Below, piece after piece: positions 38,307 through 63,906 of a stretch of DNA of 64,000 nt. Where the stretch lies: positions 1,970,001 to 2,034,000 of the forward strand of contig NZ_WTYD01000001.1 in NCBI RefSeq assembly GCF_009827295.1, read 5' to 3'. The notes beneath the pieces are model-generated. The model saw only the letters and a list, made by a program, of their open reading frames with translations. It searched no databases and was not told where the DNA came from. Source of the stretch: Qipengyuania pelagi (lineage in GTDB: Bacteria > Pseudomonadota > Alphaproteobacteria > Sphingomonadales > Sphingomonadaceae). Position numbers and translations under genes: made by a program. The stretch's first letter is position 1. The number at the start of each line of letters is the position of its first letter.

Positions 38307-38987
38307 TCAGTAACTGCCGCGACTTGCCAGCACCGAAGGGACGGTCAGGACGAGGATGCGCAGATTGTCATACACACCCGACGTGCGGACATAGAGCACG
38401 TCATAGGCAACGCGGCGGCGATAGCTGACATCGTTGCGGCCACTGATCTGCCACAGGCCGGTCAGGCCTGGGCGCACGGCGCAGTAATGCTGGAGATAAC
38501 GGCCGTAGCGCGCCGCTTCCTTTTCCACGATCGGGCGCGGCCCGACCAGGCTCATATCGCCCTTGAGGACGCTCCAGAGTTGGGGAAGCTCGTCGAGGCT
38601 GCTCTTGCGCAGGAACCTTCCGACCCCGGTCACGCGCGGGTCGTCGCGCAGCTTGTGATCCTTGTCCCATTCGGCACGCGCCGCCGGATCGCTCGCGAGA
38701 AGCGCGTCGAGTCGCGCTTCGGCATCGGTCGCCATGGTGCGGAACTTGTAGCAATCGAACAGGCGACCGTCGAAGCCGATACGCTTCTGGCGGAAGAAGA
38801 CCGGCCCAGGATCGCCGATGTAGACCGCGAGTGCCACCACCAGCATGACGGGGGCGAACAGCACCAGCAGGACAAGCGCGCCCGCCATGTCGACGACGCG
38901 CTTCTGGCGGGGATGCGCAATGACGAATTTTTGCGGTGCACCAAGCTGCGGAGCCCGATATTCGCGCTTGATTGCGGTCATTTCCAT
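38307..38987 (-). CDS. Initiating sugar transferase (WcaJ/ExoY type)
   Basis: The 226-residue protein is a short-form polyisoprenyl-phosphate hexose-1-phosphate transferase: one membrane helix ([25 protein letters not shown]), then [49 protein letters not shown] and [14 protein letters not shown]. It attaches the first sugar phosphate to undecaprenyl phosphate and so begins repeat-unit synthesis. It lacks the extra N-terminal helices of full-length WcaJ. Confidence 0.9.
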
Positions 38988-39108
38988 ACCAGCCCCCTAT
39001 TTCTATGGTGCGGTGCAGCATACGCATAGGGCGGCGTTAGGGCTTTGTAAACTGTCTTTGTCGGCGCACCCTACGGTGCGTCATATCGGGACAACCTCCC
39101 GCGGCTGC

Positions 39109-39294
39109 TTAAAGATAGGACAGGATCAGGCTCCACGCACAAAGGCCGAGAATGGTCGGCAGGCCGAGCTTCCCGAAGGCATAGGTCCCGTCCCGCAGGA
39201 TCGCGCGATCGTACATCCCGCGCGCGATTTCGGGGTGATGGGGCGAACCGCGCATCGAGGCGCGATCGGACGCGATGAGGCCGGTGTCGATCAT
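39109..39294 (-). CDS. Small hypothetical protein (61 aa) with C-terminal membrane helix
   Basis: The 61-residue product ends with a hydrophobic segment, LGLPTILGLCAWSLILSYL, after a polar region with two MxRG/MYDR-like stretches. It lies between the outer-membrane protein gene and the sugar transferase gene on the same strand, and 41 bp after the former. The ribosome site is poor. Position and one clear helix make it a plausible real gene; no family recognised. Confidence 0.45.
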   Translation of the reverse strand: MIDTGLIASDRASMRGSPHHPEIARGMYDRAILRDGTYAFGKLGLPTILGLCAWSLILSYL

Positions 39295-39335
39295 GCCGTT
39301 TTATAGGCTTGATCGGGTGAAGAATGTGTTGCCGG

Positions 39336-40622
39336 TCAGAAAGTATAGGCGGCCGACACCATCGCGCGCTTCTGATTACCTTCCGAAAGGCCCTGACGCC
39401 GGAACGTCTCGCCACGGAAATTCAGGGAAACGCGCGGCGACACGTAATAGATGGCGCCGATCACTGCACGAAACTCGTCACCGATATTACCGAGGTCACC
39501 GGCGGAAAATTCCACATATTCGAGATCGCTGCGCAGGATCAGATTGCGCCGCAATTCGTGTTCGCCCCGCAAGGCCACACCGGTGCTGAGGAGGTTGCTG
39601 AAAAGCGGGTTTATGGTTTCGTCGACCGACCGCCTCGCCTGAAGCTGGAACCGGGTCAGGCGCGTGGGGCTGTAATAGGCGTTCGCTTCGAACGAGACGG
39701 CTTCGATCGCTGGTTGCGACGGATCGTCATAAGTCAGGCGGCTGAACCCGACATTCCCATCGAAGGACAGCAATTCGGTCGCCTGGAACTGAATTCCCCC
39801 GACCACCGCGAGATTGTCGCCCGAACGGTCCGCCGCAAACACCTCCGGAAGCGTCAGCGCGGCAGCGGGCAGCGTCCCGTCATACTCGAAACGGCCATAC
39901 CGCCCCTCGACATAGAGGCGCTGATCCGGTCGGGTAGAATAGCTCACCCGTCCGCGCCCTTGATAGAGCATGTTGTCGCGAAAACCGACATCGAAGACCT
40001 GATCGCGGAAGATGTATTCGCCGTCATACTGGTTGCGCGCGATCCGCCCCTCGCCTTCGAGCGTGAAGGACCCGATGTCCTGCGCCACGCCCGCATTCGC
40101 GCCATAGGTAAAGGCGCGCAGCGGTTGGTTGATATTGCCCCCCACGGTCACCTGCGACTGGCTGGAATCGTTCAGCCTGACCTCGGCCCCGGCAAACGGC
40201 CGGGTCGACGTGCCGAGGCCGAACCGCAGGCGCGTGCTCGCGAGAAGCTGGAACCGATCGTCGGCATTGCCGTCGAGGAAGGTCTGGTATCCGGTGGCGA
40301 GATTCAGCCGGATTTCGCGGTCCGGGCGACGATCGGTGACCGAAACGCTGGGCTTCACCGAGATGATCACGTCATCGACATCGAGAAGATCGGACGCGAA
40401 GAGATTGTCGACATATTCGACTCCCGCTTCGACCTGCGGCACCAGTTCGAACGCCCCGATCGTGATCGGCGGGCTGGCGAATTCGGGCCGCGCCCGGTCC
40501 TCTATCCGCGTCCGGGGATCGAAGTCCTGCGCGCTCGCGCCGGCTGCCACACAGGACAGGCAGACGCCCGCTCCCCAAAGCGCCCGCCTGCGGTGAAATG
40601 CGCGATCGATTAGCATAGCCAT
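39336..40622 (-). CDS. Outer-membrane beta-barrel protein of the exopolysaccharide locus
   Basis: The 428-residue protein has a signal peptide ending near AAGASAQ and then alternating beta strands through to a C-terminal aromatic residue (AMVSAAYTF), typical of BBP2-like outer-membrane barrels in exopolysaccharide loci. It follows the Wzc-like gene by 39 bp. It may form or assist the outer-membrane export path. An in-frame ATG two codons later is an alternative start. Confidence 0.75.
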   Translation of the reverse strand: MAMLIDRAFHRRRALWGAGVCLSCVAAGASAQDFDPRTRIEDRARPEFASPPITIGAFELVPQVEAGVEYVDNLFASDLLDVDDVIISVKPSVSVTDRRPDREIRLNLATGYQTFLDGNADDRFQLLASTRLRFGLGTSTRPFAGAEVRLNDSSQSQVTVGGNINQPLRAFTYGANAGVAQDIGSFTLEGEGRIARNQYDGEYIFRDQVFDVGFRDNMLYQGRGRVSYSTRPDQRLYVEGRYGRFEYDGTLPAAALTLPEVFAADRSGDNLAVVGGIQFQATELLSFDGNVGFSRLTYDDPSQPAIEAVSFEANAYYSPTRLTRFQLQARRSVDETINPLFSNLLSTGVALRGEHELRRNLILRSDLEYVEFSAGDLGNIGDEFRAVIGAIYYVSPRVSLNFRGETFRRQGLSEGNQKRAMVSAAYTF

Positions 40623-40661
40623 CCTGCCCTCACTTTCGCCCGTGAATCGATCGGATCGCGA

Positions 40662-42827
40662 TCAGTTCTGGTAGTAACCCTGGAATTTCTTGGTGTAGGC
40701 GTAAACATCGCCGTCACCGGTGCTGGCGTATTTCCTGATATTGACCTGCGACAGCGCCAGGCCCGTGATCTTGGCCTTGGCGTCGACCAGCATCATCACC
40801 GCAGCCTCGACCGCGCGCATGGAGGTGTTCTTCCACCGGGTGATGACGAGGACGCGATCCGCCGCACTGGCCAGAATGCGCCCTTCCGCCACGCCGAGGA
40901 TCGGCGCGGTATCGACAATGACGATGTCGAACCGTTCGCGCAGATTGTCGAAAAGCTCCCTCACCTTCGCTTCGGTGAGAGGGTTGTAGGCCGAACTCGG
41001 CACATCGCCCGTCCCCAGGACGGCAAGGCCGGACAGGGGATCGATCTTGAGGCACTCGTCGAGCGAGGCTTCGCCGGTCAGATAGGATCGCAGGTCCCGC
41101 TCATTGTCGTAATCCATCAGCACGCTTGCGCCGCGACGGCGCAAATCGGCATCGACGAGGACGACGCTCAACCCCTCGGCGGCGCTGGTCCGTGCGATAC
41201 AGACCGAGGTGGTGGTCTTGCCCTCGCCCGGCAGGGCGGAGGTGATCGCGATGGTCCTCGGCCTGGCTCCTGGCGACAGCGTCAGGAAGGTCCTGATCGA
41301 TCGGAACGCTTCGGCGAACAGCGAATGGGAATGCGCGATGACGTAATCGTGCGGCGGCTCCAGCGCCTTGCGTCCCTTCACGGTCGAGGAAAGCGCCGGG
41401 ATCGCGCCCGCATAGCGCAGCTTCAGGCGCCGCTCGACATCGCGCTTGGTCTGGACGCCCCGGCGCAGATATTCCGCGACCAGGATCGCGAACAGGCCGG
41501 CGCTCAGCGCGAGCACCAATCCCGCGAGGCCGATCAGCACGTAATTCGGGCTCGACGGCGCGGTCGGCACGATCGCGCGCGAGGCGATGGTCGCATCCGG
41601 CATGGCGCTGTTGCGCAAGGCGCCCGATTCCTGCGAGCGTTCGAGGAAGGATTCGTAGATCGCCTGCGCGGCATCGGCCTTCTGCTCCAGGGCGCTGAGG
41701 CCCGTCTGCGCGACGCTGTTGCCGCGCACCACGCCAAGCGCCCGGCCCCGGCTCGATTCGAGCGAAGCGACGCGCGATTGCGCGGTCTGCACCTCGGCTT
41801 CGAGATTGGAGAGGACCCGGTCGATCTCGTCCTGGATGCGCTCGCGGATATCGCGCAGCTCTTCCTCGACCTGGCGCCGTTCGGGATAGAGTGCGCCGTA
41901 TCGCTCGCGCAGCACTGCCAGCCGCGCGCTTGCCGTCGCTTCCTGCTGGCGCAGGCTGGCGATCGTCCCGGATCCCAGCGCCGCCCCGACATCGGCCCCG
42001 CCGCTGCCACGAGTCAGCTGTTCGCGCGCGGAATTGTAGCGCCCCCGCTTTTCAGCCAGATCGGCGCGTGCCTGCGCCAGTTCGGTGTTGAGGTTGGAGA
42101 CCTCCTGTTCCGCATTCGTGCCGCTATTGCTGCTGGAGAGCCCGCGCGAGGCGCGATACTGGTCGACGGCGGCCTGTGTCGAAATCGCATTGCGCTGCAA
42201 TTCGGACAGGCGCGCATTGATGAATTCCGAAGAGGAATCGCTGCGCGCGGTCTTCGCCTCGACCTGGCTGACGAGATAGGCTTCGGCGACGAGGTTCGCG
42301 GCTGCGGCGGTGAAGGCCGCATCGTCGCTGACGGCGGAAATATCGACCACCCGCACGTCGCCGGTCCGCGTTACATTGGTGATCCCACCGATCCGCATAC
42401 CGATCGCCTCGATCTCGTCGGCGGTGAACGGATCGCCATCGGGAGACGCGAAGCGATCGGCGTAAAGCTCCGCCGCGCGCTTCGCCACCAGGGGGGACGA
42501 GATCAGCGCGATCTCGGTATCCACCTCGTCGACCCCGACGATGTTAGGGTCCGAATTGGGGCCGGTCGTGCGAATGGGCTCGGAGGTGGGCTCGATCAGG
42601 ACGCTTGCCGAAGCGAAATATTGCGGCGTTAGCGTCGCCATGATCGCCCCGGTCAGGCCGAGGATCGCCAGGACGACAATGCAGAACAGCAGGAAATTGC
42701 GGCGGAAAACCTGCCAGATCAGCCCCGGATCGGGCAGCAGGGGCGCACCTGACGAGGACGAAGGCGCCTCGGCCGCGGCATCGCCCGGATCGTTGGGATC
42801 GAAATCTTGGTGTTCTGTGCCAGCCAT
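40662..42827 (-). CDS. Wzc-like polysaccharide co-polymerase / tyrosine autokinase
   Basis: A 721-residue protein. Residues about 30-450 are the Wzz-type chain-length domain, with membrane helices near 45 and 440 around a coiled-coil periplasmic part (QRNAISTQAAVDQYRA, REQLTRGSGG, EVQTAQSRVASLESSRG). The C-terminal BY-kinase has Walker A TSALPGEGKTTTSV, Walker A' VVLVDADLRRRG and Walker B DIVIVDTAPIL. It ends in a tyrosine cluster (YAYTKKFQGYYQN), the usual autophosphorylation site. It should control polymerisation and export of the polysaccharide. Confidence 0.92.
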   Translation of the reverse strand: MAGTEHQDFDPNDPGDAAAEAPSSSSGAPLLPDPGLIWQVFRRNFLLFCIVVLAILGLTGAIMATLTPQYFASASVLIEPTSEPIRTTGPNSDPNIVGVDEVDTEIALISSPLVAKRAAELYADRFASPDGDPFTADEIEAIGMRIGGITNVTRTGDVRVVDISAVSDDAAFTAAAANLVAEAYLVSQVEAKTARSDSSSEFINARLSELQRNAISTQAAVDQYRASRGLSSSNSGTNAEQEVSNLNTELAQARADLAEKRGRYNSAREQLTRGSGGADVGAALGSGTIASLRQQEATASARLAVLRERYGALYPERRQVEEELRDIRERIQDEIDRVLSNLEAEVQTAQSRVASLESSRGRALGVVRGNSVAQTGLSALEQKADAAQAIYESFLERSQESGALRNSAMPDATIASRAIVPTAPSSPNYVLIGLAGLVLALSAGLFAILVAEYLRRGVQTKRDVERRLKLRYAGAIPALSSTVKGRKALEPPHDYVIAHSHSLFAEAFRSIRTFLTLSPGARPRTIAITSALPGEGKTTTSVCIARTSAAEGLSVVLVDADLRRRGASVLMDYDNERDLRSYLTGEASLDECLKIDPLSGLAVLGTGDVPSSAYNPLTEAKVRELFDNLRERFDIVIVDTAPILGVAEGRILASAADRVLVITRWKNTSMRAVEAAVMMLVDAKAKITGLALSQVNIRKYASTGDGDVYAYTKKFQGYYQN

Positions 42828-42855
42828 ATGTGTGCGTATTCCCGAGATAAGTCCT

Positions 42856-44394
42856 CTACCGGATCCGGCGAGTTGGGTTCGTCCCCGTCCTCGCTCGCGG
42901 TTTCACCCTCGCCAGTCCCGCAAGTGCGAGGCCCGCAAGTTCCCGTTCCGAACTGGCAGGCCCGCCAAACATGGCGTGAAGGGCGAAAAGTGACGCGGCA
43001 TACGCCGCTATGCCTGCCGCGATGATCGCAGCCAGTGTCAAGATCGAGGGGAGATCCGTCCCCGCCGCCGGAAACATCCCGACCAGCAGCAGCACGAGCG
43101 CCGCCATCACGACCGAAGCCAGGAACGGCCTCGCCGCAAGGCTGATCTGTTCGCTGAACGGACTGGCGACCAGCTTCCTGACCATGGCCATGTTGATCGC
43201 GGAATTGGCGATGGCGGACGCCACAAGGGCGATCGACAATCCCTCCAGCCCGCCCAGGGCGCTTCCCCGTCCGACTGCGAGGCCGAGGACGAGGAGCGGC
43301 ATCTGGATCAGGAAGGAGCGGACATTGCGCCACAGGATCTCGTTCGTCCGCCCCGTCGCCATTGCGAGCGGAAGGGCGTTCTGGATCGCCTGGACCGAAC
43401 TGGCGATCGCGACCGCCTGCAACACCGGCACGGCGGGCAGCCATTTCGCGCCGAGAACGATCAGGACGACCGGCTGCGCCACGGCGGCCAGGCCGAAGCC
43501 GAAGGGCAGCGCCGCGAGGCTGGTCATCGCCTGCGCCCTTACATAGGCTGCGCGCATCCGTCCGAGATCGTCCGCCATGCGGCTGAAGGCGGGGAACAAT
43601 GTCGCCTGCAAGGCGCCGATCGATTCGCGCACCGGCATGGAGGCGACGCGCTCGCCGACGGAAAACTGACCCACCGCCACGGTCGGAAGGAAGGCGCCGA
43701 CGACCAGCGGCACCGCGCGCAGGCTGATCGTCTTCACGATTTCGCTGAAGGTCAGCCAGATCGAAAAGGACATCAGGGCGCGCCAGCGGGACAGATGGAA
43801 GCGCGGCCGGTAAGGCATCTTGATATAGGTCAGCGCGACTCGCGCCAGCGTGGCCGCCGCAGCGCCGAAGATCAGCGCCCAGTAGGAACGCAGCACGAAG
43901 GCGATGGCCACCGCGACGACGAGCGAGACGATCTTCTCCACCACGTCGAATTCGAAATCGGGGCGAAAATCGAGCGCGCGCCGGAAGACGACGATTCGGG
44001 GGTTTTCCAGCGCCCGCGCGGCGGCGGTGAAGGCGACCACCGCGAATATGGGGATCAGGCGCGGCTCGGAATAGGCGGCGGCCATCGGCCAGGCAATGGC
44101 CATGAGGATCGCGGAAATCGCACAGGCGCGCAGGAGATTGAGCGTCCAGGCGGAATGATAATCGTCATCTTCAGGATCGTCGAACTGGACGAGCGCCTGT
44201 GTCAGCGACAATTCCGACACGGAACCCACCACGGCGGCAGCGGCCATGGCGATCGCGACGAGGCCGAAATCATCGGGCGAAAGCAAGCGCGCCAGCACGA
44301 TCGTGCTGATAAAGCCGCTTAAATTCACGACTATGCGCCCCGCCCCCATCCAGGCTGCGCCTTTCAGCACCTTGCGGCCGCTCTGATTATTCAT
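42856..44394 (-). CDS. Polysaccharide flippase (Wzx-like, MOP superfamily)
   Basis: A 512-residue membrane protein with about twelve to fourteen helices. The N-terminal block KVLKGAAWMGAGRIVVNLSGFISTIVLARLLSPDDFGLVAIAMA is the characteristic opening of exopolysaccharide flippases. It is the first gene of the minus-strand block that continues with the Wzc-like gene 28 bp downstream. It is a second flippase in this window, besides the one at 43-1506, suggesting two separate glycan pathways. Confidence 0.88.
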   Translation of the reverse strand: MNNQSGRKVLKGAAWMGAGRIVVNLSGFISTIVLARLLSPDDFGLVAIAMAAAAVVGSVSELSLTQALVQFDDPEDDDYHSAWTLNLLRACAISAILMAIAWPMAAAYSEPRLIPIFAVVAFTAAARALENPRIVVFRRALDFRPDFEFDVVEKIVSLVVAVAIAFVLRSYWALIFGAAAATLARVALTYIKMPYRPRFHLSRWRALMSFSIWLTFSEIVKTISLRAVPLVVGAFLPTVAVGQFSVGERVASMPVRESIGALQATLFPAFSRMADDLGRMRAAYVRAQAMTSLAALPFGFGLAAVAQPVVLIVLGAKWLPAVPVLQAVAIASSVQAIQNALPLAMATGRTNEILWRNVRSFLIQMPLLVLGLAVGRGSALGGLEGLSIALVASAIANSAINMAMVRKLVASPFSEQISLAARPFLASVVMAALVLLLVGMFPAAGTDLPSILTLAAIIAAGIAAYAASLFALHAMFGGPASSERELAGLALAGLARVKPRARTGTNPTRRIR

Positions 44395-45590: not shown

Positions 45591-45704
45591 CTTCCCGCTA
45601 TCTAATTACCTTCCGATAGTGCGATCTTGGACAGTGCGGTCACGGGGCATTGCCTCGGGCGGGTAAGCTTGCCGCAGAGCGCCGACCGCCTGCCTATCGA
45701 TGCG

Positions 45705-46592: not shown

Positions 46593-46623
46593 TATACCCC
46601 CCGTTATTCGCAATCCCGGACGG

Positions 46624-47046: not shown

Positions 47047-47093
47047 CCGCCTCTCTTTACCGAATCTGTTTCCTTCGGCAACACGGCACACAC

Positions 47094-54044: not shown

Positions 54045-54072
54045 CCCGCCAGTATGGCCCAAGGTTCGTGCA

Positions 54073-55059
54073 ATGTCAGGTGATACCTCGCCCACTCCGC
54101 CCGCGACCGGAGGCCCGACCGGCCAGCCGATCGACGTCAGCTTCGCCGTCGCCTGCTACAATGCGGGCGCCTATCTCGAACCGGCGATCCGCTCCGCCCT
54201 CGCGCAGCAGGACGTCACGCTCGAAGTGCTGATCGTCGATGACGGCAGCAGCGATAGCAGCCGCGAGGTCGCCCGGCGGCTGGCGGAGGAGGATTCGCGG
54301 GTGATCGCCCTCAATACGCCGCGCAATAGCGGCCCGGCAGGCGCCCGCAATGTCGCGCTGAAGGCCATGCGCGGGCGATGGTATGCGATCCTCGATGCGG
54401 ACGATCTCCTCCTGCCCGATCGCAGCCGGAAATTGCTGGACCTCGCCGCGAAACGCTCGGCCGACATGGTGGCCGACAATCCGACCGAGTTCGGCGAGGG
54501 GATTTCGGAAAGCCCCATGTTCGACCTCGCCCCGAAAGAGGGCGACGCGCTGCTCGATCTCGACCGCTATTTCCTCGATTCCCGCCTGTTCGGCCCCAGG
54601 CCCGGTCCGGGATATCTGAAACCGATGATCCGGCGCGACGCGATGCTGCGCGCAGGTCTGTCCTACAACGAAGAACTCCAGATCGGCGAGGACGACGAGC
54701 TGGTGATCCGCGCCCTGATCGCCGGGCTTCGCTACGCCGTCGCCGATTATTCGGGCTACCGTTATCGCAAGCACGCCAGTTCGATTTCGCACCGGCTGTC
54801 GCTCGACCATCTCAACAGGATGATCGCCGCCGAAGAGACCATCGCCACCCTGCTCCCGGACGACGTGCGCACATCCCCCGCCTATCGCGGCCGCCGATCG
54901 GCCCTGCGCCGTGCTGCGGCATTCACCCGGTCGATCGAGGCGCTCAAGCGCAGGGCGCCCCTGGCGGCGGCTTGCGAGATCGCCCGCCATCCCGCTGCGC
55001 TGACGCTCTATTCCCTGCCGCTGAAGGCGCGGTTGCGCAGGATGCTGGCGGCCCGATAG
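54073..55059 (+). CDS. Family 2 glycosyltransferase
   Basis: The 328-residue GT-A enzyme starts after a Pro/Thr-rich leader: VSFAVACYNAGAYLEPAIRSAL, VLIVDDGSSDSSREVARRL, AILDADDLLLPDR with the DXD motif, and GEDDELVIRALIAG, the likely base region. ATG 54073 gives a normal N-terminus. It is followed 67 bp later by the Wza-like export gene and likely adds a sugar to the same polymer. Confidence 0.87.
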   Translation: MSGDTSPTPPATGGPTGQPIDVSFAVACYNAGAYLEPAIRSALAQQDVTLEVLIVDDGSSDSSREVARRLAEEDSRVIALNTPRNSGPAGARNVALKAMRGRWYAILDADDLLLPDRSRKLLDLAAKRSADMVADNPTEFGEGISESPMFDLAPKEGDALLDLDRYFLDSRLFGPRPGPGYLKPMIRRDAMLRAGLSYNEELQIGEDDELVIRALIAGLRYAVADYSGYRYRKHASSISHRLSLDHLNRMIAAEETIATLLPDDVRTSPAYRGRRSALRRAAAFTRSIEALKRRAPLAAACEIARHPAALTLYSLPLKARLRRMLAAR

Positions 55060-55126
55060 GAGGTTGTCGATATTGGCGCCGTTCTTTATGCAGGTCCGGC
55101 ATCCCAACTCCTATCCAGGACGACCC

Positions 55127-55702
55127 ATGCCCGGCCACAGAAGCGTCTTTCGCGCCCTTTTCGCAACGCTCCTGCTCACCATCGTGAGCGCATGTGCCGG
55201 CACCAACGCCGCGCCGGGATCGGCGGCCTACCAGCCGACGGTCTATCGCCTCGCCGCGGGCGACCAATTGTCGATCACGGTGTTCGGCGAAGAGAACCTG
55301 AGCCGCGAATATTCGGTGACGCCGCAGGGCGATCTCGCCTTCCCGCTGCTGGGCGATATTCCGGTGGCGAACCAGACCGTTGGCGACTTGCAGCAGCTGC
55401 TGCGCGATCGCCTGGCCGAAGGATATCTGAACGATCCGCGCGTCACGGTCGAAGTGCTCAATTACCGGCCCTTCTACATCCTCGGCGAAGTCAACAATGC
55501 GGGTGAGTATCCGTTCAAGAACGGGCTGACCGTCGTCCAGGCGGTCGCGCAGGCCGGTGGGTTCACCTACCGCGCCGACAAGGACACCGTGTATATCCTG
55601 CGCCCGGGCCAGACGGCGGAGGAAAGCTACGATATCGATTCGGGCCGACCGGTCTATGTGGCGCCCGGAGACACGATCCGGGTCGGCGAGCGGTATTTCT
55701 AG
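55127..55702 (+). CDS. Wza/GumB-like polysaccharide export lipoprotein
   Basis: The 191-residue protein has a lipobox (VSAC) and the Poly_export domain: YRLAAGDQLSITVFGEENLSREYSVTPQGDLAFPLLGDIPVANQTVGDLQQLLRDRLA, then a SLBB-type domain, YILGEVNNAGEYPFKNGLTVVQAVAQAGGFTYRA. It lacks the long extra domains and terminal helix of full-length Wza, so it may form part of the exit channel with another outer-membrane partner. It is separated by about 12 kb from the Wzc-like gene. ATG 55127 has AGGA upstream. Confidence 0.88.
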   Translation: MPGHRSVFRALFATLLLTIVSACAGTNAAPGSAAYQPTVYRLAAGDQLSITVFGEENLSREYSVTPQGDLAFPLLGDIPVANQTVGDLQQLLRDRLAEGYLNDPRVTVEVLNYRPFYILGEVNNAGEYPFKNGLTVVQAVAQAGGFTYRADKDTVYILRPGQTAEESYDIDSGRPVYVAPGDTIRVGERYF

Positions 55703-55792: not shown

Positions 55793-57028
55793 ATGACGTC
55801 TTCAGAGCGGCCTGTCGCGACGATCGTGTCGAAGCAAAGACTTTTAGGCTCGACCAACGGCAGTTCGACCTATCTGCTTTCGATCGCGCGCTCGATCGAA
55901 CAGGCTGGCTATGAAATCCATCTGATCCAGCCCTCTCCCGCCATCGCGGGGCGAACGCCTCTCATGCGGTTTCTCCCCGAGATGCGTGTCTTTGCCGAAC
56001 ACAAGATCAGGGGCGCGGTGAAGACCGGTTCACGAGCGCTCTTCCTGTCGCCGAAGGTTTGGACAGGCTTCATGGGGGGTGCAGCACGGTTGCTGCTGAG
56101 AAAAATCGGCATTCGGGGGAGCCTGGTAGCTGACCGGAAGGCGCCCTATGCTGTCGCGAGCGACTGGTCGTCGGAAGACATCGCCTTTCTTGCATCCGCG
56201 ATATCCCCACGAACCCGCCTGATTGTCGCGGATTACATTTTCTGCGCTCCGGCCTTCGAATTTGGTCCGCCAGACGTCTCCAGGGCGACCGTCATGCACG
56301 ACCTTTTTCACAGCCGTGCCGGAGGCGGCGCGGATTCCGTAGCCATCATCTCCCGCGAGCGGGAAATCGCCTTGCTGGCCGAAGCCGATGCGATTTTCGC
56401 CATCCAGGAAGCAGAGGCGGCCTTCTGCCGGGAGACCGTGCCGGATACCGAAACCGTTCTCGTACCCATGCCCGCCGAGCCGGTCGAACGGGTTCAGGAA
56501 GGATCCGACGATCTCGTGCTGTTCGTCGGCAGCGACACCGCGCCGAACATCGTTGGCCTGGAATGGTTTCTCGACTCGGTGTGGCCCCATGTTCGTACGA
56601 AAAGGCCGGATTGTCGGTTGAAAATAGCGGGAACGGTCCATCGTGCGTTCGCAGGGCGAGCATGGGACGGGGTCGATTTTCTCGGCCTGGTCGACGATCT
56701 GGGTGCGTTGTACACCGAATGCGGGGTCGTGATCTCTCCGCTGACCTTCGGATCTGGCCTGAAAATCAAGCTCGTGGAGGCATTGGCGCGCGGCAAGGCG
56801 GTGATCGCCACATCCGTCACATTGCAAGGCGTCGAAGATATCTGCCGTGATGCCGTTATTCAGACCGACGACGCCACTATCTTCGCCGATGCCCTTGTCG
56901 ATCTCGCCGGCTCCTCACACTCTCGAAGAGACCTCGCCCAGCGCGCCCTTACCTGTGCGCAACGCAATTTCTCCCCCGACACGACGCATCGCGATCTGCG
57001 GAACTGGTGCGAGAAAGCACGGGCTTAG
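55793..57028 (+). CDS. GT4 glycosyltransferase
   Basis: The 411-residue GT-B protein has an N-terminal domain starting VSKQRLLGSTNGSSTYLLSIARSIEQAG. Its C-terminal domain contains VLFVGSDTAPNIVGLEWFLDSVWP, VDFLGLVDDLGALYTECGVVISPLTFGSGLKIKLVEALARGKAVIAT, the classic GT4 nucleotide-sugar motif with the ExxxxE-type acidic region. It ends 19 bp from the stop of the lasso cluster's exporter gene (convergent). Lower GC than most genes here. Confidence 0.85.
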   Translation: MTSSERPVATIVSKQRLLGSTNGSSTYLLSIARSIEQAGYEIHLIQPSPAIAGRTPLMRFLPEMRVFAEHKIRGAVKTGSRALFLSPKVWTGFMGGAARLLLRKIGIRGSLVADRKAPYAVASDWSSEDIAFLASAISPRTRLIVADYIFCAPAFEFGPPDVSRATVMHDLFHSRAGGGADSVAIISREREIALLAEADAIFAIQEAEAAFCRETVPDTETVLVPMPAEPVERVQEGSDDLVLFVGSDTAPNIVGLEWFLDSVWPHVRTKRPDCRLKIAGTVHRAFAGRAWDGVDFLGLVDDLGALYTECGVVISPLTFGSGLKIKLVEALARGKAVIATSVTLQGVEDICRDAVIQTDDATIFADALVDLAGSSHSRRDLAQRALTCAQRNFSPDTTHRDLRNWCEKARA

Positions 57029-57046: not shown

Positions 57047-58816
57047 CTAACCACCCGATATCATTCGCGCGATCTTACTCTCGTCGCGCGCCGCCAGCTC
57101 GCTGTAGCTGCCCTGTTCGACGATGCGCCCGTTCTCCAGCGCGACGACATGGTCGGCGAAGGAAACCAGCGAGGGGCGATGCGCGATCGTCAGGATCGTC
57201 AGCTCTCCGCGCAGCGCGGTAATGGCCGCCACGATCATGCGCTGGTTTTCCCAGTCGAGCGCGCTCGTCGCCTCGTCCAGGATCAGCAATTGCGGCTTGC
57301 GCAACAGGGCGCGAGCGAGGGCGAAACGCTGCCGTTCCCCGCCCGAAAAGCGCGTGCCGCGATCCCCGGCGACGGTTTCCAGCCCGTCCGGCAGCGCGCG
57401 CACCAGTTCCGCGATATTGGCGCGTTCGAGCGCGTCCCATATCTCGGCATCCGTCGCGTGGGCATTGCCGAGCCGCAGATTGCTCGCCAGCGTCGTGTGG
57501 AGCAATTGCGATTCCTGCGGGACGCTCGCCACCGTCGAGCGCCAGGCGCGCCGGTTGGCCGCATCGATCGCTACCCCGTCGATCGTCATGATGCCTGCGG
57601 TCGGCGCGAACAGGCCCGCCATGATATCCGCCAGCGTGCTCTTCCCGCTGCCGGAGGGGCCGATCATCGCCACGATCTGACCCTTCGGGATTTCCAAGGT
57701 TACATCCCGCAGCGAAGGCGTCTCGGCCCCGGCATAGGTCATCCCCACGCCGGTCAGACCAATGCTTTCCCGCAAGGACGGCGCCGTCGCGCCCGAGAGC
57801 GCCGGTTCCTCGCGATGGGCATCGAAATGGTCGGCATTGCGGCGATAATTGGCGAAGGCCGGGGCTTCGGTCAGGAAGGTCTGGACGTTTTCCTGAATCG
57901 CGGAAAAGCGCGGCGCGATGCGCGCGAAGACGACCAGCAGCGTCGCGAGGCGGGCGAAATCGAGCGCGAACACCTCGATCGCCAGATAGACGAACAGCGC
58001 CGCCACAAGCGCCGCGCCGATCTGGAAGAACACCCCGCCCCAGGTGCTCAGCGCCGCGAAATCCAGCACCGCGCCCCTGATGCGCCCGACATTGCCCGAA
58101 TATTCGCGCACCTGCCGGTCCTCGGCGGCGAACAGCTTGGCCAGCCTGATGCTGCCGATGAACTCCAGCACGGTGGCGTTCTGGTCCTGATACATCGCGA
58201 TCAGCCGCTTGCCGTGGCGGTTGGCCCGGCGGCGCAGGGGATAGAGGGCAAGGAACAGCGCCCCGCCGATCACGAAGGCGAACAGCGCCATGGGCCAGGA
58301 GATCAACAGCGCCAGCACGAGATAGATCGCCAGCATCAGGCAGGCCTGGACGATCGCCAGAACGCTGCCGATCGATCCCATGACATTGTCGATATCGTGG
58401 GTCAGCGCGTGGTTGAGATCGCTGCTGCGGCGATTGTGCAGCGCCTCCCAGCGCGCATAGCTGATGCTTTCGAACAGCCGCGTTCGCAATTGCGCGCTCA
58501 CATCCTGGATCGTGCGCTGGTTGAACAAGGCCTTGGCCCGGCTCAGAAGCGCCTGCGCCACGACCAGCGCGATGAAGATCATCAGCAGCGTCACCAGATC
58601 GGGCGACCAGCGCGCCAGCGTCTCTCCGACGAGCGGTAGATCACTCAGGACCGAGCCACCGCCGGGCATGGCGATCGCGACCAGGGGGATCAGGATGACG
58701 AGCGAAAGCCCTTCGGTCAGTCCGGCGAGCGCCGTCAGCCCCACGCCCGCGAGGAGGCGACCGCCGGCGACGGCCCAGATCGTCGCGAGATAGTCCCTCA
58801 GCCCGGCGAGAGTCAT
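57047..58816 (-). CDS. Lasso peptide ABC exporter (D protein)
   Basis: The 589-residue transporter has a six-helix exporter domain (about 15-310) and an ATPase: Walker A GPSGSGKST, Q-loop VPQESQLLHTTL, signature FSGGERQRFALARALL, Walker B LLILDEATSALDWEN and H-loop AHRPSLVSF. There is no peptidase C39 domain, as in other lasso D proteins, because leader removal is done by B2. It starts within the stop of the kinase gene (ATGA). It should export the finished peptide and give self-protection. It is the last gene of the cluster. Confidence 0.88.
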   Translation of the reverse strand: MTLAGLRDYLATIWAVAGGRLLAGVGLTALAGLTEGLSLVILIPLVAIAMPGGGSVLSDLPLVGETLARWSPDLVTLLMIFIALVVAQALLSRAKALFNQRTIQDVSAQLRTRLFESISYARWEALHNRRSSDLNHALTHDIDNVMGSIGSVLAIVQACLMLAIYLVLALLISWPMALFAFVIGGALFLALYPLRRRANRHGKRLIAMYQDQNATVLEFIGSIRLAKLFAAEDRQVREYSGNVGRIRGAVLDFAALSTWGGVFFQIGAALVAALFVYLAIEVFALDFARLATLLVVFARIAPRFSAIQENVQTFLTEAPAFANYRRNADHFDAHREEPALSGATAPSLRESIGLTGVGMTYAGAETPSLRDVTLEIPKGQIVAMIGPSGSGKSTLADIMAGLFAPTAGIMTIDGVAIDAANRRAWRSTVASVPQESQLLHTTLASNLRLGNAHATDAEIWDALERANIAELVRALPDGLETVAGDRGTRFSGGERQRFALARALLRKPQLLILDEATSALDWENQRMIVAAITALRGELTILTIAHRPSLVSFADHVVALENGRIVEQGSYSELAARDESKIARMISGG

Positions 58817-59727
58817 TTCCCCGCGCCGGAAAGCATGGCCTCCACCATGGCGACGGTTTCGCCCAGCCGGTCGCGATCGTGGGGAATATGCAGCCGCCCC
58901 ACGCGCGTCGTGTCCGCGATCCGCGCCGCCTGCCGGAACTGGCGCGCGCGGTCCTGCATGGCGAGGGGCGCGAGCGTGAAACGGACGTTGTAGCTATAGC
59001 GGAACAGCGGCTCGATCGCGTCCGCCGCGCTCAGCCATTCGATCCTCGGGGTGTCGCCGCCGCGTTGCAGGATGAAGATGCAGTCCGTGTCGGCAGGGTC
59101 CTGCGCCATTGCGGGCAGCCTGTATTGCCGCTTCTCGAACCCTTCCATCACCAGCGGCAACACGGTCGCCTGCGGGATATCGGCATTGGGCGCATCGGCA
59201 TTCAGCTTCATCTGGGCAAAGGCGGGCTGGATCTGCGGCTGCCCCTCCCCCTCGCAATCGATCGCGAGAAGGTCGTCCGTCATCAGCGCCCAGCCCGCTT
59301 TCAGGAAGGCCGACGCCGTGGTGGATTTGCCAGCCGTCTTGTCGCCCAGGAAAGCGACCGAGCGCCCGTCGCGCCGCGCCGCACTGGCGTGCAGCACGAA
59401 CAGGCCGCGCATATGCAGCATCCAGCCCATGACGGGCCCGAGCAGGGGAAAAGCGAGATAGTTTTCCGGGACGCCTTCGAACGGCTGGATGTGGACCAGC
59501 GAAGGGTTCTCGATCCTGATCGATGCCGCACCCGGCCACATCATTTCGACACCCTTCGGCCCTTCGAAATCGAAGCGCGCATAATGGCCGAGCGGCGGGA
59601 TGGTCTCGCCAAGGTCGGACCGCACGATGCGCAGATCGACCTTTGCGCTCTCGTCGGGCTGCGGCGCCAGCTCGTCGAGGCGAACATCGCTGCCAATGGT
59701 CAATCCGAAAGCTCGATATCGGTACAT
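58813..59727 (-). CDS. HPr-kinase-like lasso peptide kinase
   Basis: The 304-residue protein resembles HPr kinase/phosphorylase-fold enzymes that modify lasso precursors (PadeK of paeninodin is the reference). It has LFVLHASAA with His113, P-loop FLGDKTAGKST (Gly128-Ser135), and LMTDDLLAID with Asp151/152 as the Walker B-like acidic pair. It would phosphorylate the C-terminal Ser of the precursor using ATP. ATG 59727 is used; an upstream TTG at 59736 would instead overlap the cyclase stop by 4 bp. Kinase function is inferred from the family and the precursor's terminal Ser. Confidence 0.78.
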   Translation of the reverse strand: MYRYRAFGLTIGSDVRLDELAPQPDESAKVDLRIVRSDLGETIPPLGHYARFDFEGPKGVEMMWPGAASIRIENPSLVHIQPFEGVPENYLAFPLLGPVMGWMLHMRGLFVLHASAARRDGRSVAFLGDKTAGKSTTASAFLKAGWALMTDDLLAIDCEGEGQPQIQPAFAQMKLNADAPNADIPQATVLPLVMEGFEKRQYRLPAMAQDPADTDCIFILQRGGDTPRIEWLSAADAIEPLFRYSYNVRFTLAPLAMQDRARQFRQAARIADTTRVGRLHIPHDRDRLGETVAMVEAMLSGAGK

Positions 59728-59732
59728 GGCGC

Positions 59733-61535
59733 TCAATTATCCGAATTGGCCAGGGGGGCGGCGGTAAGGGGCGCGTGCGCGATGTCCGCCCACATGGCCA
59801 GTATTGCCACACGCCAGAGGAAAAAGGCATCCCCCAGGGCGATTCCAGCCCCATTCCGGTACAGGCTTTCGCGCGCCTCGGTCAGCGACTGACGATCGAC
59901 CAGCCCCCAGGGATCGGCGACCGCCGGATCGGTGAGGTCGAGCACCTTGTCGGTCTGGCTCACCAGCCCAGCGACGAAGGCGGAGGTGAAATCGAACTTG
60001 TCCTGCCGGTTCAGCGTCTCTTCCGGCAGATCACCCCGATAGGCGGCCCGCAGGATATAGCGCGACAGCCCATCGCGCAGCTTCCATTCCGAGGGCAGCG
60101 AGAAAGACTGTTCGACCAGGTCGACGTCGTAGAACGGCAGGCGGGTATCGACGCCCGCGGCATGGCTGCACAGGGCGAAAACCTCGAGCGAGCCGGGTTG
60201 CAGGGCGTGGTCGAGCACCTCGAGCTGGAGCATCCGTTCGTCATGGTCGAGCCGACCGGCCGCGGGACGGATCTCGTAGCGATCGGGTTCGATCGCGCGA
60301 ACCGCATCGTCGCTCAGATAGCGCCGCTGAATGGGCGATGCGGCGACGGCGTTACGCCCCAGTCGTCGGATCAGGCGGCGCAGATAGGGTTTGTGGGAGA
60401 GATACCGCCGGAACAGGGCGATCCGATCGTCGCCATAGAGTTGCGAAGCGGCACGCGTCTCGCGCCAGAGCTGCCACCATTTGCCGCGTTTCGCCAATTC
60501 GTTGAGGCGCCCGAACCCGTAGGACACCACCTCGTCCCCGCCATGGCCCGACAGGACCACGCCATCGCCCATCTGCCTTGCCAGATGGAGCAGCTGGAAC
60601 GACACCGAATGCCCTCGCGGCAGATGCGGGCCGTCGACCGCGCGAAGCCAGAACGCCATGTCCTGAAGTGGATCGTGGACGTCACCCGCGACCTCGACGG
60701 GGTCGAGCCCGGTCATAGCAGCGACGGCGGCGAGATGCCGGTCGTCGCACCAGCTCGGCGTCTCGCGATAGGTGAGCGACAACGCATCGAGCGGGCGTGA
60801 ACCCGATAGCGGGCCCGATAGCGAGGCCGACGCCGCGATCGCCGAGGAATCGAGCCCCCCGCTCAGCATCAGGGCGGTCTGCCCCGGCCGGATGCACCGC
60901 GCCACGGACTGGTCGAGCAAGTCCCGGAACCGTTCGACCGGCGCATCGGGATGCGGGTCCGCCGCCACGTCTGACAGGGACCAATATCGCTGGCGCTGGC
61001 GATCGTCGTGGCGATACAGCGCCCAATGGGCGGCTGGAAACCGTGCGATTCCATCGAAAAAGGTCCGCTCGCGCTCGAGATAGGCCCCGGCGATGAAATC
61101 GGCGAGCATGGTGCGATCGTCGGATGGCGAGAACCCAAGCGCCGCACGCAGGCTTTGCGAGGTCTGACCGAAAAAGAGGTCATTTTCGGTTTCGCTGACG
61201 AAGAGTGGCGCCAGCCCGAAATGATCGCGCGCAACATAGATCATGCCGTCCGTAGGATCGCGCAGGACGAATGCGAAAGCGCCCCTAAGCTGCGCCGCAA
61301 GGCCCGTTCCCCATCGCCGCCAGCCCGCCGCCAGCATATCTTCGAGGCCAGCCTCGGGTGAGATATCGCAGGACTCGGCGATGGTAGCGCGATTGTCGAT
61401 GCGGATGTTCACCGCCGCGAGAAGCAATTCCGCGCCATTGGCCTGCCCCTCGCGATCTCGGGCGTGAAAAGGCTTTTCGATCCGGCAGGCCGTGCCGGAC
61501 GCCGGCCCGGACATAGGGATCGGGGTGGGATTCAC
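59733..61535 (-). CDS. Lasso cyclase (asparagine synthetase-like C protein)
   Basis: The 600-residue protein is related to asparagine synthetase B. The N-terminal glutamine-amidotransferase-like domain (about 1-200) lacks the N-terminal Cys nucleophile. The C-terminal synthetase domain has the PP-loop LSGGLDSSAIA and VVLSGHGGDEVVSYG. In lasso systems it adenylates the Asp/Glu side chain and links it to the new N-terminus, closing the ring. GTG start within the B2 stop (GTGA, 61532-61535) shows tight coupling. Length is normal for the family. Confidence 0.9.
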   Translation of the reverse strand: MNPTPIPMSGPASGTACRIEKPFHARDREGQANGAELLLAAVNIRIDNRATIAESCDISPEAGLEDMLAAGWRRWGTGLAAQLRGAFAFVLRDPTDGMIYVARDHFGLAPLFVSETENDLFFGQTSQSLRAALGFSPSDDRTMLADFIAGAYLERERTFFDGIARFPAAHWALYRHDDRQRQRYWSLSDVAADPHPDAPVERFRDLLDQSVARCIRPGQTALMLSGGLDSSAIAASASLSGPLSGSRPLDALSLTYRETPSWCDDRHLAAVAAMTGLDPVEVAGDVHDPLQDMAFWLRAVDGPHLPRGHSVSFQLLHLARQMGDGVVLSGHGGDEVVSYGFGRLNELAKRGKWWQLWRETRAASQLYGDDRIALFRRYLSHKPYLRRLIRRLGRNAVAASPIQRRYLSDDAVRAIEPDRYEIRPAAGRLDHDERMLQLEVLDHALQPGSLEVFALCSHAAGVDTRLPFYDVDLVEQSFSLPSEWKLRDGLSRYILRAAYRGDLPEETLNRQDKFDFTSAFVAGLVSQTDKVLDLTDPAVADPWGLVDRQSLTEARESLYRNGAGIALGDAFFLWRVAILAMWADIAHAPLTAAPLANSDN

Positions 61536-61972
61536 AGATCGACAATCGGTGTGAAGTCTTCGATCCGTTCCTCCTGCCCCCCGATCATCACGGCATCACC
61601 GGCGATCACCCAGGCATGGGCTTCGAAGGCCTTGCCCCGTTCCTGCCTGACACCGATGCGGATCGTGCATTCCTGCCCTTCGCGCGCGGCGAGATATCGC
61701 AGGGTCAAGGCCTGCGTCAGGCAACTGGCATTCGGCACCAGCGGAGCCGTCCTTTCGACGGCCCAGGCCAGCAGTGGGAGGGGGATGCCGAGGTCCTGGC
61801 GAGGAGGAATGCCCTTGATGCGGGCGAGGACAGGGCGATAGCTGCGCAATGTCAGGGTCAGGCGGATCGCAACGAGGAGAACCAGTGCCTTGAGCAGCAG
61901 AAGATGATGCCGCCGGATCAACCTGCCCCAGCGCGCGATCCGGTCAATCGCCCCGGACAACGAGTCCTGCAT
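61532..61972 (-). CDS. Lasso leader peptidase (transglutaminase-like B2)
   Basis: The 146-residue protein has the lasso B2 pattern: the catalytic Cys in PNASCLTQALTLRYLAAREG, then His in AFEAHAWVIAGDAVMIGG and the acidic residue nearby. It would cut the leader after the residue following Thr22 of the precursor. ATG 61972 is chosen because it starts at the conserved helix; the open frame extends to 62029. It overlaps the end of B1 by 29 bp. Confidence 0.87.
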   Translation of the reverse strand: MQDSLSGAIDRIARWGRLIRRHHLLLLKALVLLVAIRLTLTLRSYRPVLARIKGIPPRQDLGIPLPLLAWAVERTAPLVPNASCLTQALTLRYLAAREGQECTIRIGVRQERGKAFEAHAWVIAGDAVMIGGQEERIEDFTPIVDL

Positions 61973-62228
61973 CCTCGAAAGACGCGACGACCGCTTGTAC
62001 GTCGTCAGCGCAAACCTCACGCTCGACATCGAAGGTTTCCAGCATCCGATCGATGAGTTCCGCGACAGTCGCGCCCGAACCGAGCCATTCCCAGATCATC
62101 GCGGCAGAGCCGTTCAGCGTATAATAATTGCTGGAGGCAAGATCGAGAAGCGCGTTACCGCCTTCAAGCGTACAGGCAACCACATCGGGAGCTTGCCGCA
62201 AGCGGACACTGTCGTCTGAACCTGTCAT
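61944..62228 (-). CDS. RiPP recognition element protein (PqqD-like B1)
   Basis: The 94-residue protein is a stand-alone RRE of the PqqD fold: LRQAPDVVACTLEGGNALLDLASSNYYTLNGSAAMIWEWLGSGATVAELIDRM, followed by the winged-helix C-terminus. It should bind the YxxPx-aromatic motif of the precursor leader and guide it to the peptidase. ATG 62228 follows GGGGGCGGATAAA, a strong ribosome site; an in-frame TTG at 62243 is less likely. It is separated from the precursor by a hairpin. Confidence 0.87.
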   Translation of the reverse strand: MTGSDDSVRLRQAPDVVACTLEGGNALLDLASSNYYTLNGSAAMIWEWLGSGATVAELIDRMLETFDVEREVCADDVQAVVASFEDAGLVVRGD

Positions 62229-62276
62229 TTTATCCGCCCCCAATCCGTTCGTGTCACCAAACGGTCAGGGACGAGA

Positions 62277-62304
62277 AAAGGCAACCGAAAAATCGGCTGC
62301 CTTT
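62277..62304 (-). terminator. Attenuator-like hairpin between precursor and B1
   Basis: On the minus strand, AAAGGCAGCCGA (62304-62293) pairs with TCGGTTGCCTTT (62288-62277), one G-U pair, with a TTTT loop and a T-rich tail. It begins 24 bp after the precursor stop. Partial termination here would make the precursor mRNA far more abundant than the enzyme mRNA, a common need in RiPP clusters. Confidence 0.6.
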
Positions 62305-62328
62305 CTCCTTAACCATTCAACGGTGTGC

Positions 62329-62472
62329 TTAGGAAAGCGCGCCGGTGATCAGCGGAGCTTGATTGGCATAGGCCGCGTCGGTGCGGTTGCCGCTGCTCGT
62401 GCTCTTGGTGATGGCTTCGATCGAACCGACCTTCTTGAAGGTGGGACGCTCGTAGGTGGCCTTGGTGGACAT
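62329..62472 (-). CDS. Lasso peptide precursor (A), predicted Ser1-Asp9 ring
   Basis: The 47-residue precursor starts MSTKATYERPTFKKVGSIEA. Its leader has Tyr7-x-x-Pro10-x-Phe12, the lasso RRE recognition motif, and Thr22 at the position two before the cut. The predicted 24-residue core starts at Ser24. Its ring STSSGNRTD joins Ser1 to Asp9, the only acidic residue after Thr22, and the tail AAYANQAPLITGALS ends with Ser24 (precursor Ser47), the site expected for the kinase. Ribosome site GAAGGGG is eight bases upstream. Candidate steric plugs are Tyr12, Leu18 and Ile19. Confidence 0.87.
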   Translation of the reverse strand: MSTKATYERPTFKKVGSIEAITKSTSSGNRTDAAYANQAPLITGALS

Positions 62473-62655
62473 AGTTTTCCCCTTCTTTCGGAGTGCACGG
62501 GTATTCTTGCGAGGCCGAGTGCAACCCATCGGAATCGACCTGTTGTCACAATCGCAATGAATTAACTTTCTGACAACCATGATTCTGCTGCATTGCACCA
62601 TGACAAAGCCAATTTCACATTTTTGTGCCAATATGGGACAGCGTAACACTACGTA
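62473..62655. promoter_or_regulatory. Divergent promoter region of the lasso cluster
   Basis: This AT-richer 183-bp gap lies between the precursor and the divergent nucleotidyltransferase gene. An inverted repeat, GTTGTCA (62542-62548) and TGACAAC (62571-62577), has 22 bp between arms. A further TGACAA lies at 62601-62606. On the minus strand TTGTCA (62576-62571) followed after 17 bases by GATTGT could be the precursor promoter. The repeat may be an operator. No regulator gene is adjacent in the window. Confidence 0.4.
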
Positions 62656-63906
62656 ATGCCCGCATTCCGTAACGTCATAAGGCTTTGCTGCGATGCGGCA
62701 TTCCGGCTTGCCAACGAGTCGCTGGGGGTGACATACTTCGCAGGAATTTCGTACGATCGATCGCTATTATTCTGTCCAGGGGAACACGCCATCGCGTCTT
62801 CGAAGCCTTCAGGTTCCGGACCTTCTGATCGTGGACGTGCCGCGTCCTCTCGAGAAGTGTTCGCGCTGATTGCCATCCTGCGCGGTTGGATGGGGAGCGG
62901 TCCGGGCGAGCTGCTTCGCGAAAAAACCCGAGAGGGCGACGACCTTGACGCCGTCCTCGCCTTGGCCATTCGCACCAAGACGCTGGGATTGTTGAGCGGC
63001 GGCTTCGATCGGTCGGAGACCGCGATCCCCACCCGCCTCTCCGATGAACTCGCGCGTCGTCACGAGGAAATCCTCGCGATCAACCTGCGCGCCCTCACCA
63101 CGATCGCGAAGGTCGCGCAGGCATTCGCGGAAGAGAGGCTTCCCTATGTCGTCATCAAGGGTCCCTTGCGCGCCGAACAGGTCTACGGATCGATGGACGT
63201 GCGCTTCGGCAGCGATGTCGACGTCTATACGGACCGGGAGCATTACCGCGCTGCCGAGCAGGTGCTCGAAAGACGGCTGGGCTATAAGTGCCTGGTGCCG
63301 GAGGACGACACATGGTGGCACGATTATCTGGGCGAGGCGCCTTTCGCCGCACCGGATCCGAGCGCGGTGCTCATCGATCTGCACAACCAGCTGCAACAGC
63401 CCGGCGGGCCGTATCCGCGTGACGTGAAGAGCTTCGTCGAGAATGCGGAGACGCGCGCGATCGGGCGCGCTTCGGCGCGTATCCTGTCGCCGGACAATGC
63501 GCTCATGCTGACCGCGATCAGCTTCGGCAAGGCGGTGCGCAATGCCGAGCCGTGGATCGCCTATGCCCACGAGCTGACCTACGCGCTCCATCAGATGCCA
63601 TCGTCGGCGGAAGAAACCCTGACGCGCCGCGCGCGCGCAATCGGCATCGGGCGCTTGTTCGACGAGTTCCTCCGATCCTCGAAGGCGCTGTTCGGCGCCC
63701 CGATCACGGACAACACCCCGGAGTCGCGAAAGCGCCTCGCAATGTCTTCATGCGGGTTCGCACCCCATGCCCTGCTCGCCCGGTCGCGAGCCAGCTGGCG
63801 GTGGACAGAAGGTGCCGTTTTGGCGCGGTCGGCTAGATTTTCCCGTGCGATCCTGCGCGAGGCCCAGGGGCGCATGGCCTACCGCACGAGCACGAGGTTC
63901 GATTGA
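62656..63906 (+). CDS. Nucleotidyltransferase (NTP_transf_5-like) of the lasso cluster
   Basis: The product of up to 416 residues has the family motif IKGPLRAEQVYGSMDVRFGSDVDVYTD (Lys-Gly, then Arg and the Asp-x-Asp metal pair) at about residues 170-197, followed by a helical domain. Relatives accompany kinase-containing lasso clusters, where they are linked to extra phosphate/nucleotide transfer, as in pseudomycoidin. The first 67 residues look unlike coding sequence, and the true start may be GTG 62857, giving 349 residues. It is divergent from the precursor gene. Confidence 0.75.
   Translation: MPAFRNVIRLCCDAAFRLANESLGVTYFAGISYDRSLLFCPGEHAIASSKPSGSGPSDRGRAASSREVFALIAILRGWMGSGPGELLREKTREGDDLDAVLALAIRTKTLGLLSGGFDRSETAIPTRLSDELARRHEEILAINLRALTTIAKVAQAFAEERLPYVVIKGPLRAEQVYGSMDVRFGSDVDVYTDREHYRAAEQVLERRLGYKCLVPEDDTWWHDYLGEAPFAAPDPSAVLIDLHNQLQQPGGPYPRDVKSFVENAETRAIGRASARILSPDNALMLTAISFGKAVRNAEPWIAYAHELTYALHQMPSSAEETLTRRARAIGIGRLFDEFLRSSKALFGAPITDNTPESRKRLAMSSCGFAPHALLARSRASWRWTEGAVLARSARFSRAILREAQGRMAYRTSTRFD

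Follow-up and report, generated by a model that had tools for sequence, protein, structure and literature searches.

We analysed a 64,000-nucleotide stretch of the genome of the sphingomonad Qipengyuania pelagi (positions 1970001-2034000 of contig 1 in a 3.03-Mb assembly; hereafter the window) and found at 57047-63906 a lasso peptide biosynthetic cluster of the split-B type. The genes for the precursor (A), recognition element (B1), leader peptidase (B2), macrolactam synthetase (C), kinase (K) and exporter (D) run in the order A-B1-B2-C-K-D on the minus strand, and a nucleotidyltransferase gene (N) is placed divergently on the plus strand. All the reading frames are open and the catalytic motifs are retained. 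The cluster is intact and well supported, and its predicted product should carry a phosphate on the last residue and perhaps a sugar too. Judged by gene content, the lasso cluster sits inside a Wzx/Wzy-type exopolysaccharide locus. We consider it probable (roughly 0.8) that the successive action of B1, K, B2, C, N and D yields a class II lasso peptide akin to paeninodin and pseudomycoidin, and that the cluster is inherited together with the exopolysaccharide locus. Gene content, motifs, precursor family, embedding and co-inheritance are each apparent at the level of sequence.

The sequence-only reading of this region had called a lasso cluster with a kinase, a nucleotidyltransferase and an ATP-binding cassette (ABC) exporter; the gene families and motifs bear this out, and the B2/C and K/D overlaps are as it described. 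It had overlooked the exopolysaccharide embedding and the family-4 glycosyltransferase (GT4) gene beside the exporter gene. B1 and B2 each exceed the cut-off of their family. Among solved structures the best relatives of B1 are lasso B1 proteins (TfuB1, 6jx3, E 6.3e-7), while B2 scores 81.0 bits against NF033537 (cut-off 33) and had no match among PDB sequences. C exceeds the cut-off of PF00733 (E 2.8e-39), as expected of an asparagine-synthetase-like cyclase. K, D and N fit their expected families, with K below the strict model cut-off. The K residues H116, G131, G136, K137, S138, D154 and D155 are invariant across 16 aligned rows, and their spacing is identical to that of H148...D187 in BsfK. 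By alignment, K retains the motif of the tested lasso kinases, and its His, P-loop Lys-Ser and Asp-Asp are those predicted for an HPr-type kinase. N belongs to PF14907, with a nucleotidyltransferase fold and the invariant acidic active-site residues D120, D122 and D174; PsmN of the pseudomycoidin cluster is presumably a member of the same family. The PqqD, Transglut_core3 and NTP_transf_5 profiles each have a single match in the genome. The sequence-only reading had contrasted the cluster with sphingomonad lasso clusters that pair A-C-B with an isopeptidase and a TonB receptor; neither matched among 28 proteins scanned with NCBIfam and also Pfam models, which are a selection, not every open reading frame (ORF), between window position 34813 and about 5.8 kb past the window end, the search being confined to this part of the genome.

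The precursor likely yields the predicted core STSSGNRTDAAYANQAPLITGALS, with a ring between Ser1 and Asp9 and the C-terminal Ser as the phosphate site; the computed monoisotopic mass of its lasso form is 2347.140 Da. As had been anticipated, the core is new and modification is expected at its C-terminal Ser. A YxxP motif is present in the leader, where Y7, P10 and T22 fall at -17, -14 and -2, and D32 is core position 9. The precursor terminates in Ser, a paeninodin-type trait, and the core is devoid of cysteine, as in class II. An assignment of Ile as the penultimate leader residue in place of Thr was rejected: Ile21 precedes Thr22, and the YxxP register, with Tyr at -17, sets Thr22 at -2. 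The same register places ring closure at Asp9; the Ile alternative would need a ten-residue ring. Across 11 precursors from 10 related loci, that of the window included, Y(-17), P(-14), G(-8), E(-5), T(-2), D9 and the terminal Ser are invariant. A database search with the precursor alignment returned 464 proteins at E <=10, and among the best 120 of these 464 both T(-2) and D9 are present in 120/120, core residue 1 is Gly in 61, Ala in 42 and Ser in 17, and the C-terminal Ser is found in 116, the remainder ending in SD (three) or SDTP (one). Since the search profile favours such sequences, these figures describe the family and should not be read as an unbiased survey. A precursor from Erythrobacter sp. 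YT30 is among the matches.

A distinct branch of this family is marked by a cysteine pair: of 113 distinct cores, every one of the 28 with Cys4, in the ring, also has Cys23, in the tail. Such precursors occur in L042:6683-6841 and L043:12937-13098, and both loci also hold K and N. The branch predicts disulfide-locked phospho-lasso peptides, class III-like, with a single ring-to-tail disulfide. At L040:6513-6938 we also observed tandem precursor genes (60- and 45-residue ORFs) ahead of a single B1-B2-C-K-D set.

A 71-nt stretch between A and B1 folds into a hairpin at -37.4 kcal/mol (z -7.65), and a clear hairpin with a T-rich run lies at the same position in six of the nine other loci (L002, L003, L004, L039, L040 and L041), which were folded without shuffle controls. 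The A-B1 hairpin was not among the matches of a consensus terminator scan. It is probably an attenuator that lets the precursor exceed the enzymes.

We searched 396 genomes of the order Sphingomonadales, in which kinase-like matches at E 1e-10 occur in 135, and fetched 20-kb stretches around 40 of these matches. The eight strongest (E 3.3e-52 or better) all show the A-B1-B2-C-K-D order plus N and are here called the subfamily. The nearest named relative seen, judged by K (93% identity), is an Erythrobacter metagenome-assembled genome, which has the same gene set and a different core. Among the other 32 stretches, L055, L071 and L074 hold D, C, B2, B1, K and N, and L065 and L076 hold K, N, C, B1 and B2, all in other orders; hence, the kinase/nucleotidyltransferase format is wider than the subfamily. 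The novelty that had been claimed for the cluster, on the grounds that the format is better known from Bacillales, does not hold, because SyanK of Sphingobium and BsfK/BsfN of Bradymonas are already published and the order has these five further loci; the kind of cluster is therefore already known.

The N profile has nine strong matches (E 1.2e-74 or better; the next is 1.8e-29), eight of which are from the lasso genomes. The ninth is in genome G344, which carries N and a distant K at 14500-16924 of contig 8, with A, B1, B2, C and D at 43716-49069 of the same contig (L054, L098, L100). The two halves lie about 27 kb apart on either side of one polysaccharide locus, and the precursor there also shows Thr(-2), Asp9 and Ser as its last residue. 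We had considered G344 a plain exception, with N and a distant K and no lasso genes in the first 20 kb, and rejected this on finding the lasso genes about 27 kb away. As a separate observation, HPr-kinase-like genes lie near PqqD-like and asparagine-synthetase-like genes in many Sphingomonadales (L045-L076), some without a recognisable B2, and such loci may hide other types of ribosomally synthesized and post-translationally modified peptides. A literature search for HprK-related kinases with PqqD or exosortase found no paper. For 27 of 85 listed kinases (the eight of the subfamily included), a polysaccharide export gene lies no more than 35 kb away.

The polysaccharide genes of the window encode WbaP-like, EpsL-like, Wzc-like, Wzx-like and Wza-like proteins, several glycosyltransferases and a phosphatase, and past N there follow a phosphoglucomutase, GalU, a further glycosyltransferase and a Wzy-like protein. 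In all eight subfamily genomes the kinase gene is 3.6-30.2 kb from a Poly_export gene, and a Bac_transf gene is also within 30 kb. The flanks of the two fragmentary loci carry polysaccharide genes as well (Wzc and GT2 in L003; Wzy, Wza, GT2 and a phosphatase in L004). For a randomly placed locus, an export gene would lie no farther than 35 kb away in about 5.5% of cases (a rough figure assuming 2.5 export genes per genome and 3.2 Mb). In controls, which use same-contig distances only and in some cases the best matches listed, an export gene is within this distance for 8/20 lasso B2 loci that have a listed kinase no more than 12 kb away (counting the window and G065), for 7/35 without a listed kinase nearby (the split cluster of G344 included) and for 6/53 in genomes outside the kinase search. 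The link is total within the subfamily and weaker elsewhere.

We compared the mean divergence of C, K and D with that of the polysaccharide genes across the eight genomes, using Spearman correlations with 5000 label permutations; the polysaccharide homologues were chosen by best score and may include paralogues. The lasso genes correlate with Wzc at 0.91 (8/5000 permutations as high), with WbaP at 0.86 (2/5000), with the weakly glycosyltransferase-like gene at 47094-48203 at 0.92 (seven genomes, 7/5000) and with EpsL at 0.84 (seven genomes, 23/5000); without permutation, the values are 0.86 for Wza (seven genomes) and 0.72 for the hydrolase at 52065-53282. Wzc of G139 (genus 1) is 62% identical to that of G349 (genus 3), both genomes encoding the cysteine-pair core type, whereas the identity is 41% between G139 and the window (both genus 1) and 43% between G349 and G381 (both genus 3). 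As these identities cross genus borders, genus does not account for the co-divergence. Gene order varies both between and within genera. Taken together, the correlations, the cross-genus pattern and the varied gene order indicate that the lasso and polysaccharide genes travel together as a unit.

The GT4 gene adjoins D in five of the eight lasso genomes. In three of them it starts on the same strand within the D stop (ATGA in G381, TGATG in G065, GTGA in G266), in the window and G259 its end is 18 bp from the D end on the opposite strand, and in G349 it is about 6 kb away. The homologues are 46-84% identical to that of the window, and at E 1e-40 they occur in 10 of the 396 genomes, six of them lasso genomes. 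The adjoining phosphatase was rejected as a specific partner, having a homologue at E 1e-15 in 318/396 genomes; its six best matches come from five lasso genomes and G344, and in G266 it is about 29 kb off.

From these genes we infer the following steps and their order. B1 would bind the leader and present the precursor; K would phosphorylate the C-terminal Ser24, probably ahead of cyclisation; B2 would cut off the leader after Lys(-1); and C would close the Ser1-Asp9 ring around the tail. N would act on the phosphorylated C terminus; given its nucleotidyl-transfer fold, with an invariant D-x-D and a further Asp, it would either add a nucleotide or sugar-phosphate itself or prime the site for a separate glycosyltransferase, for which the GT4 beside D would be the best candidate. 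D would then export the product. According to PMC9266682, whether the partner nucleotidyltransferase itself adds sugars is open; a 2025 paper on iterative lasso peptide glycosylation appears, by its title, in the reference list of PMC13381572.

A more speculative extension, which we regard as improbable though not far-fetched, is that the lasso peptide functions within the exopolysaccharide system itself: K would supply the phosphate, N a nucleotide or sugar-phosphate and the glycosyltransferases of the locus, GT4 first, the sugars, so that the peptide would be joined to the polysaccharide, prime it or control it. If true, a glycan-bearing lasso would explain why polysaccharide loci in two phyla contain kinase/nucleotidyltransferase lasso clusters and why the two gene sets evolve jointly. 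The polysaccharide link itself is a correlation, and any part that the peptide may play in making the exopolysaccharide is inferred. We give even odds to the alternative that the polysaccharide locus is a plastic insertion hot spot and the lasso cluster an independent antimicrobial or signalling passenger, with GT4, the phosphatase and Wza serving the polysaccharide only. Consistent with a mere hot spot, export genes also lie near lasso B2 loci that have no listed kinase close by more often than chance predicts; GT4 and the phosphatase are present in polysaccharide loci that lack this lasso subfamily; and in the window GT4 is convergent, not co-directional, with D. Such a hot spot fits less well with an export gene near the cluster in 8/8 subfamily genomes from four genera and with several gene orders, or with the three overlaps between GT4 and the D stop. 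Similar embedding in Bacilli, where PMC13381572 reports that clusters for paeninodin-like and linear polyphosphorylated peptides often co-localise with capsular polysaccharide loci and that lasso and exopolysaccharide genes were synchronously up-regulated in one strain, also argues against it; the same paper states the roles of paeninodin-type peptides as unknown.

Several further points weigh against the main reading, a class II lasso cluster inherited with the polysaccharide locus. The product itself is not observed. The precursor reaches lasso leader models only below their cut-offs, and C matches NF033535 at E 1.1e-79 yet lies below its strict cut-off. The gap in the N profile is inflated because these loci helped to build it, and co-inheritance of neighbours follows from linkage and is no proof of common function. 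No GT4 was found at E 1e-40 in two of the eight lasso genomes (G139, G291), and in G209, G282, G313 and G384 it lies among polysaccharide or glycosyltransferase genes with no subfamily lasso cluster in the 20 kb fetched. Because of these four of ten carriers, which also have no kinase match, we rejected the idea that GT4 is specific to lasso clusters; it may hence serve the polysaccharide alone.

As for the site of phosphorylation, K might modify a ring residue, Ser3 or Ser4, in place of the C-terminal Ser. Ser occupies core positions 1, 3 and 4, BsfK targets Ser3 of its own lasso precursor (PMC10368454), and LppK targets Ser3 of a linear peptide (PMC13381572). However, among the 80 of 113 distinct cores that have 24 residues, Ser24 and Asp9 are present in 80/80, while Ser or Thr occupies position 3 in only 55%; BsfA itself is without a C-terminal Ser (PMC10368454); and a review gives the C-terminal Ser as the target of SyanK, which comes from the same order. 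We therefore consider a ring site quite unlikely. A silent or decayed cluster without any product is very improbable given the open frames, the retained motifs and a nearest relative with the same genes yet a different core, even though bsf yielded no detectable lasso peptide in several hosts (PMC10368454) and pba and lpp gave no product ions in Paenibacillus alginolyticus (PMC13381572).

Table 1. Lasso cluster and adjoining exopolysaccharide genes, in window coordinates
Feature	Position	Strand	Basis and remarks
A, lasso precursor, 47 aa	62329..62472	-	leader ends YERPTFKKVGSIEAITK, predicted core STSSGNRTDAAYANQAPLITGALS; T(-2)/D9 conserved in homologues
Terminator-like hairpin with T-rich tail, A/B1 gap	62272..62308	-	folding z -7.65
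B1, PqqD-type recognition element	61944..62243	-	profile match; TfuB1 structure match
B2, transglutaminase-like leader peptidase	61532..61972	-	NF033537; ORF opens 62029, relatives suggest start 61972
C, asparagine-synthetase-like macrolactam synthetase	59733..61535	-	NF033535, PF00733
K, HPr-kinase-like precursor kinase	58813..59736	-	motif; start TTG 59736 or ATG 59727
D, ABC exporter	57047..58816	-	PF00005, PF00664
N, NTP_transf_5 nucleotidyltransferase, divergent	62857..63906	+	PF14907; ORF opens 62656
GT4, family-4 glycosyltransferase, convergent with D (18-bp gap)	55793..57028	+	family and homologue matches
Metallophosphatase, exopolysaccharide gene adjoining cluster	53301-54095	-	
GT2, exopolysaccharide gene adjoining cluster	54004-55059	+	
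Wza-like export protein, exopolysaccharide gene adjoining cluster	55064-55702	+	
WbaP-like initiating transferase, EpsL/BBP2-like outer-membrane protein, Wzc-like tyrosine autokinase, Wzx-like flippase	38307..44394	-	

The starts given for N and B2 are the most likely ones, as judged from how long their relatives are. In the A/N intergenic region, 62579-62757 holds two promoter-like matches on the plus strand and a third on the minus strand; the scanned 7.1-kb stretch has four in all against 1.3 expected. Within the polysaccharide locus, 51736-51999 encodes a spike base protein of the RCAP_Rcc01079 family (NF048002, 98.2 bits, cut-off 28), followed on the same strand by a 512-residue protein with a GDSL-type esterase domain (50198-51736). 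These two proteins resemble the capsule-binding head spikes of a gene transfer agent.

The paeninodin cluster (pade, Paenibacillus dendritiformis) has a split B protein and a nine-residue ring and is not known to include N. It shares class II, a kinase and a C-terminal Ser with the window, and its gene order differs. Reviews describe the pseudomycoidin cluster (psm, Bacillus pseudomycoides) as combining a kinase with a nucleotidyltransferase: as in the window, an HPr-kinase-like protein, PsmK, acts on the C-terminal Ser, and an annotated N, PsmN, is needed for hexose addition. It belongs to Bacillota and has a characterised product, whereas in the window N is divergent, GT4 lies beside D and the product is predicted. 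Closer in descent, SyanK and its substrate SyanA from Sphingobium yanoikuyae ATCC 51230, published in 2016, come from the same order and, according to reviews, SyanK phosphorylates, indeed polyphosphorylates, the C-terminal Ser. PMC10368454 (2023) described clusters with a kinase in Bradymonadales, a nucleotidyltransferase being present in some of them, and found related precursors in Sphingomonadales. The bsf cluster of Bradymonas sediminis shares A, B1, B2, C, D, K and N and the kinase motif and spacing with the window, and differs in Ile(-2) against Thr(-2), phosphate on Ser3, an Asp8 ring and a C-terminal Asp.

Among the literature titles listed for lasso peptides combined with polysaccharides, none reports such embedding for alphaproteobacteria; what is added here is a similar embedding in that class, backed by counts and controls and by evidence of co-inheritance. 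That the polysaccharide link recurs in a second phylum makes a common function more likely. With K, N, a candidate glycosyltransferase and the polysaccharide locus all linked and inherited together, the subfamily is a compact Gram-negative system whose deletion strains could address both the role of the peptide and whether N itself adds sugars. According to PMC13381572 (2026), the paeninodin-like and linear polyphosphorylated peptide clusters of Bacilli share with the window an HprK-like kinase, an NTP transferase, an MsbA-like transporter and the polysaccharide embedding, whereas the window has an alphaproteobacterial Wza/Wzc system, for which co-inheritance is measured.

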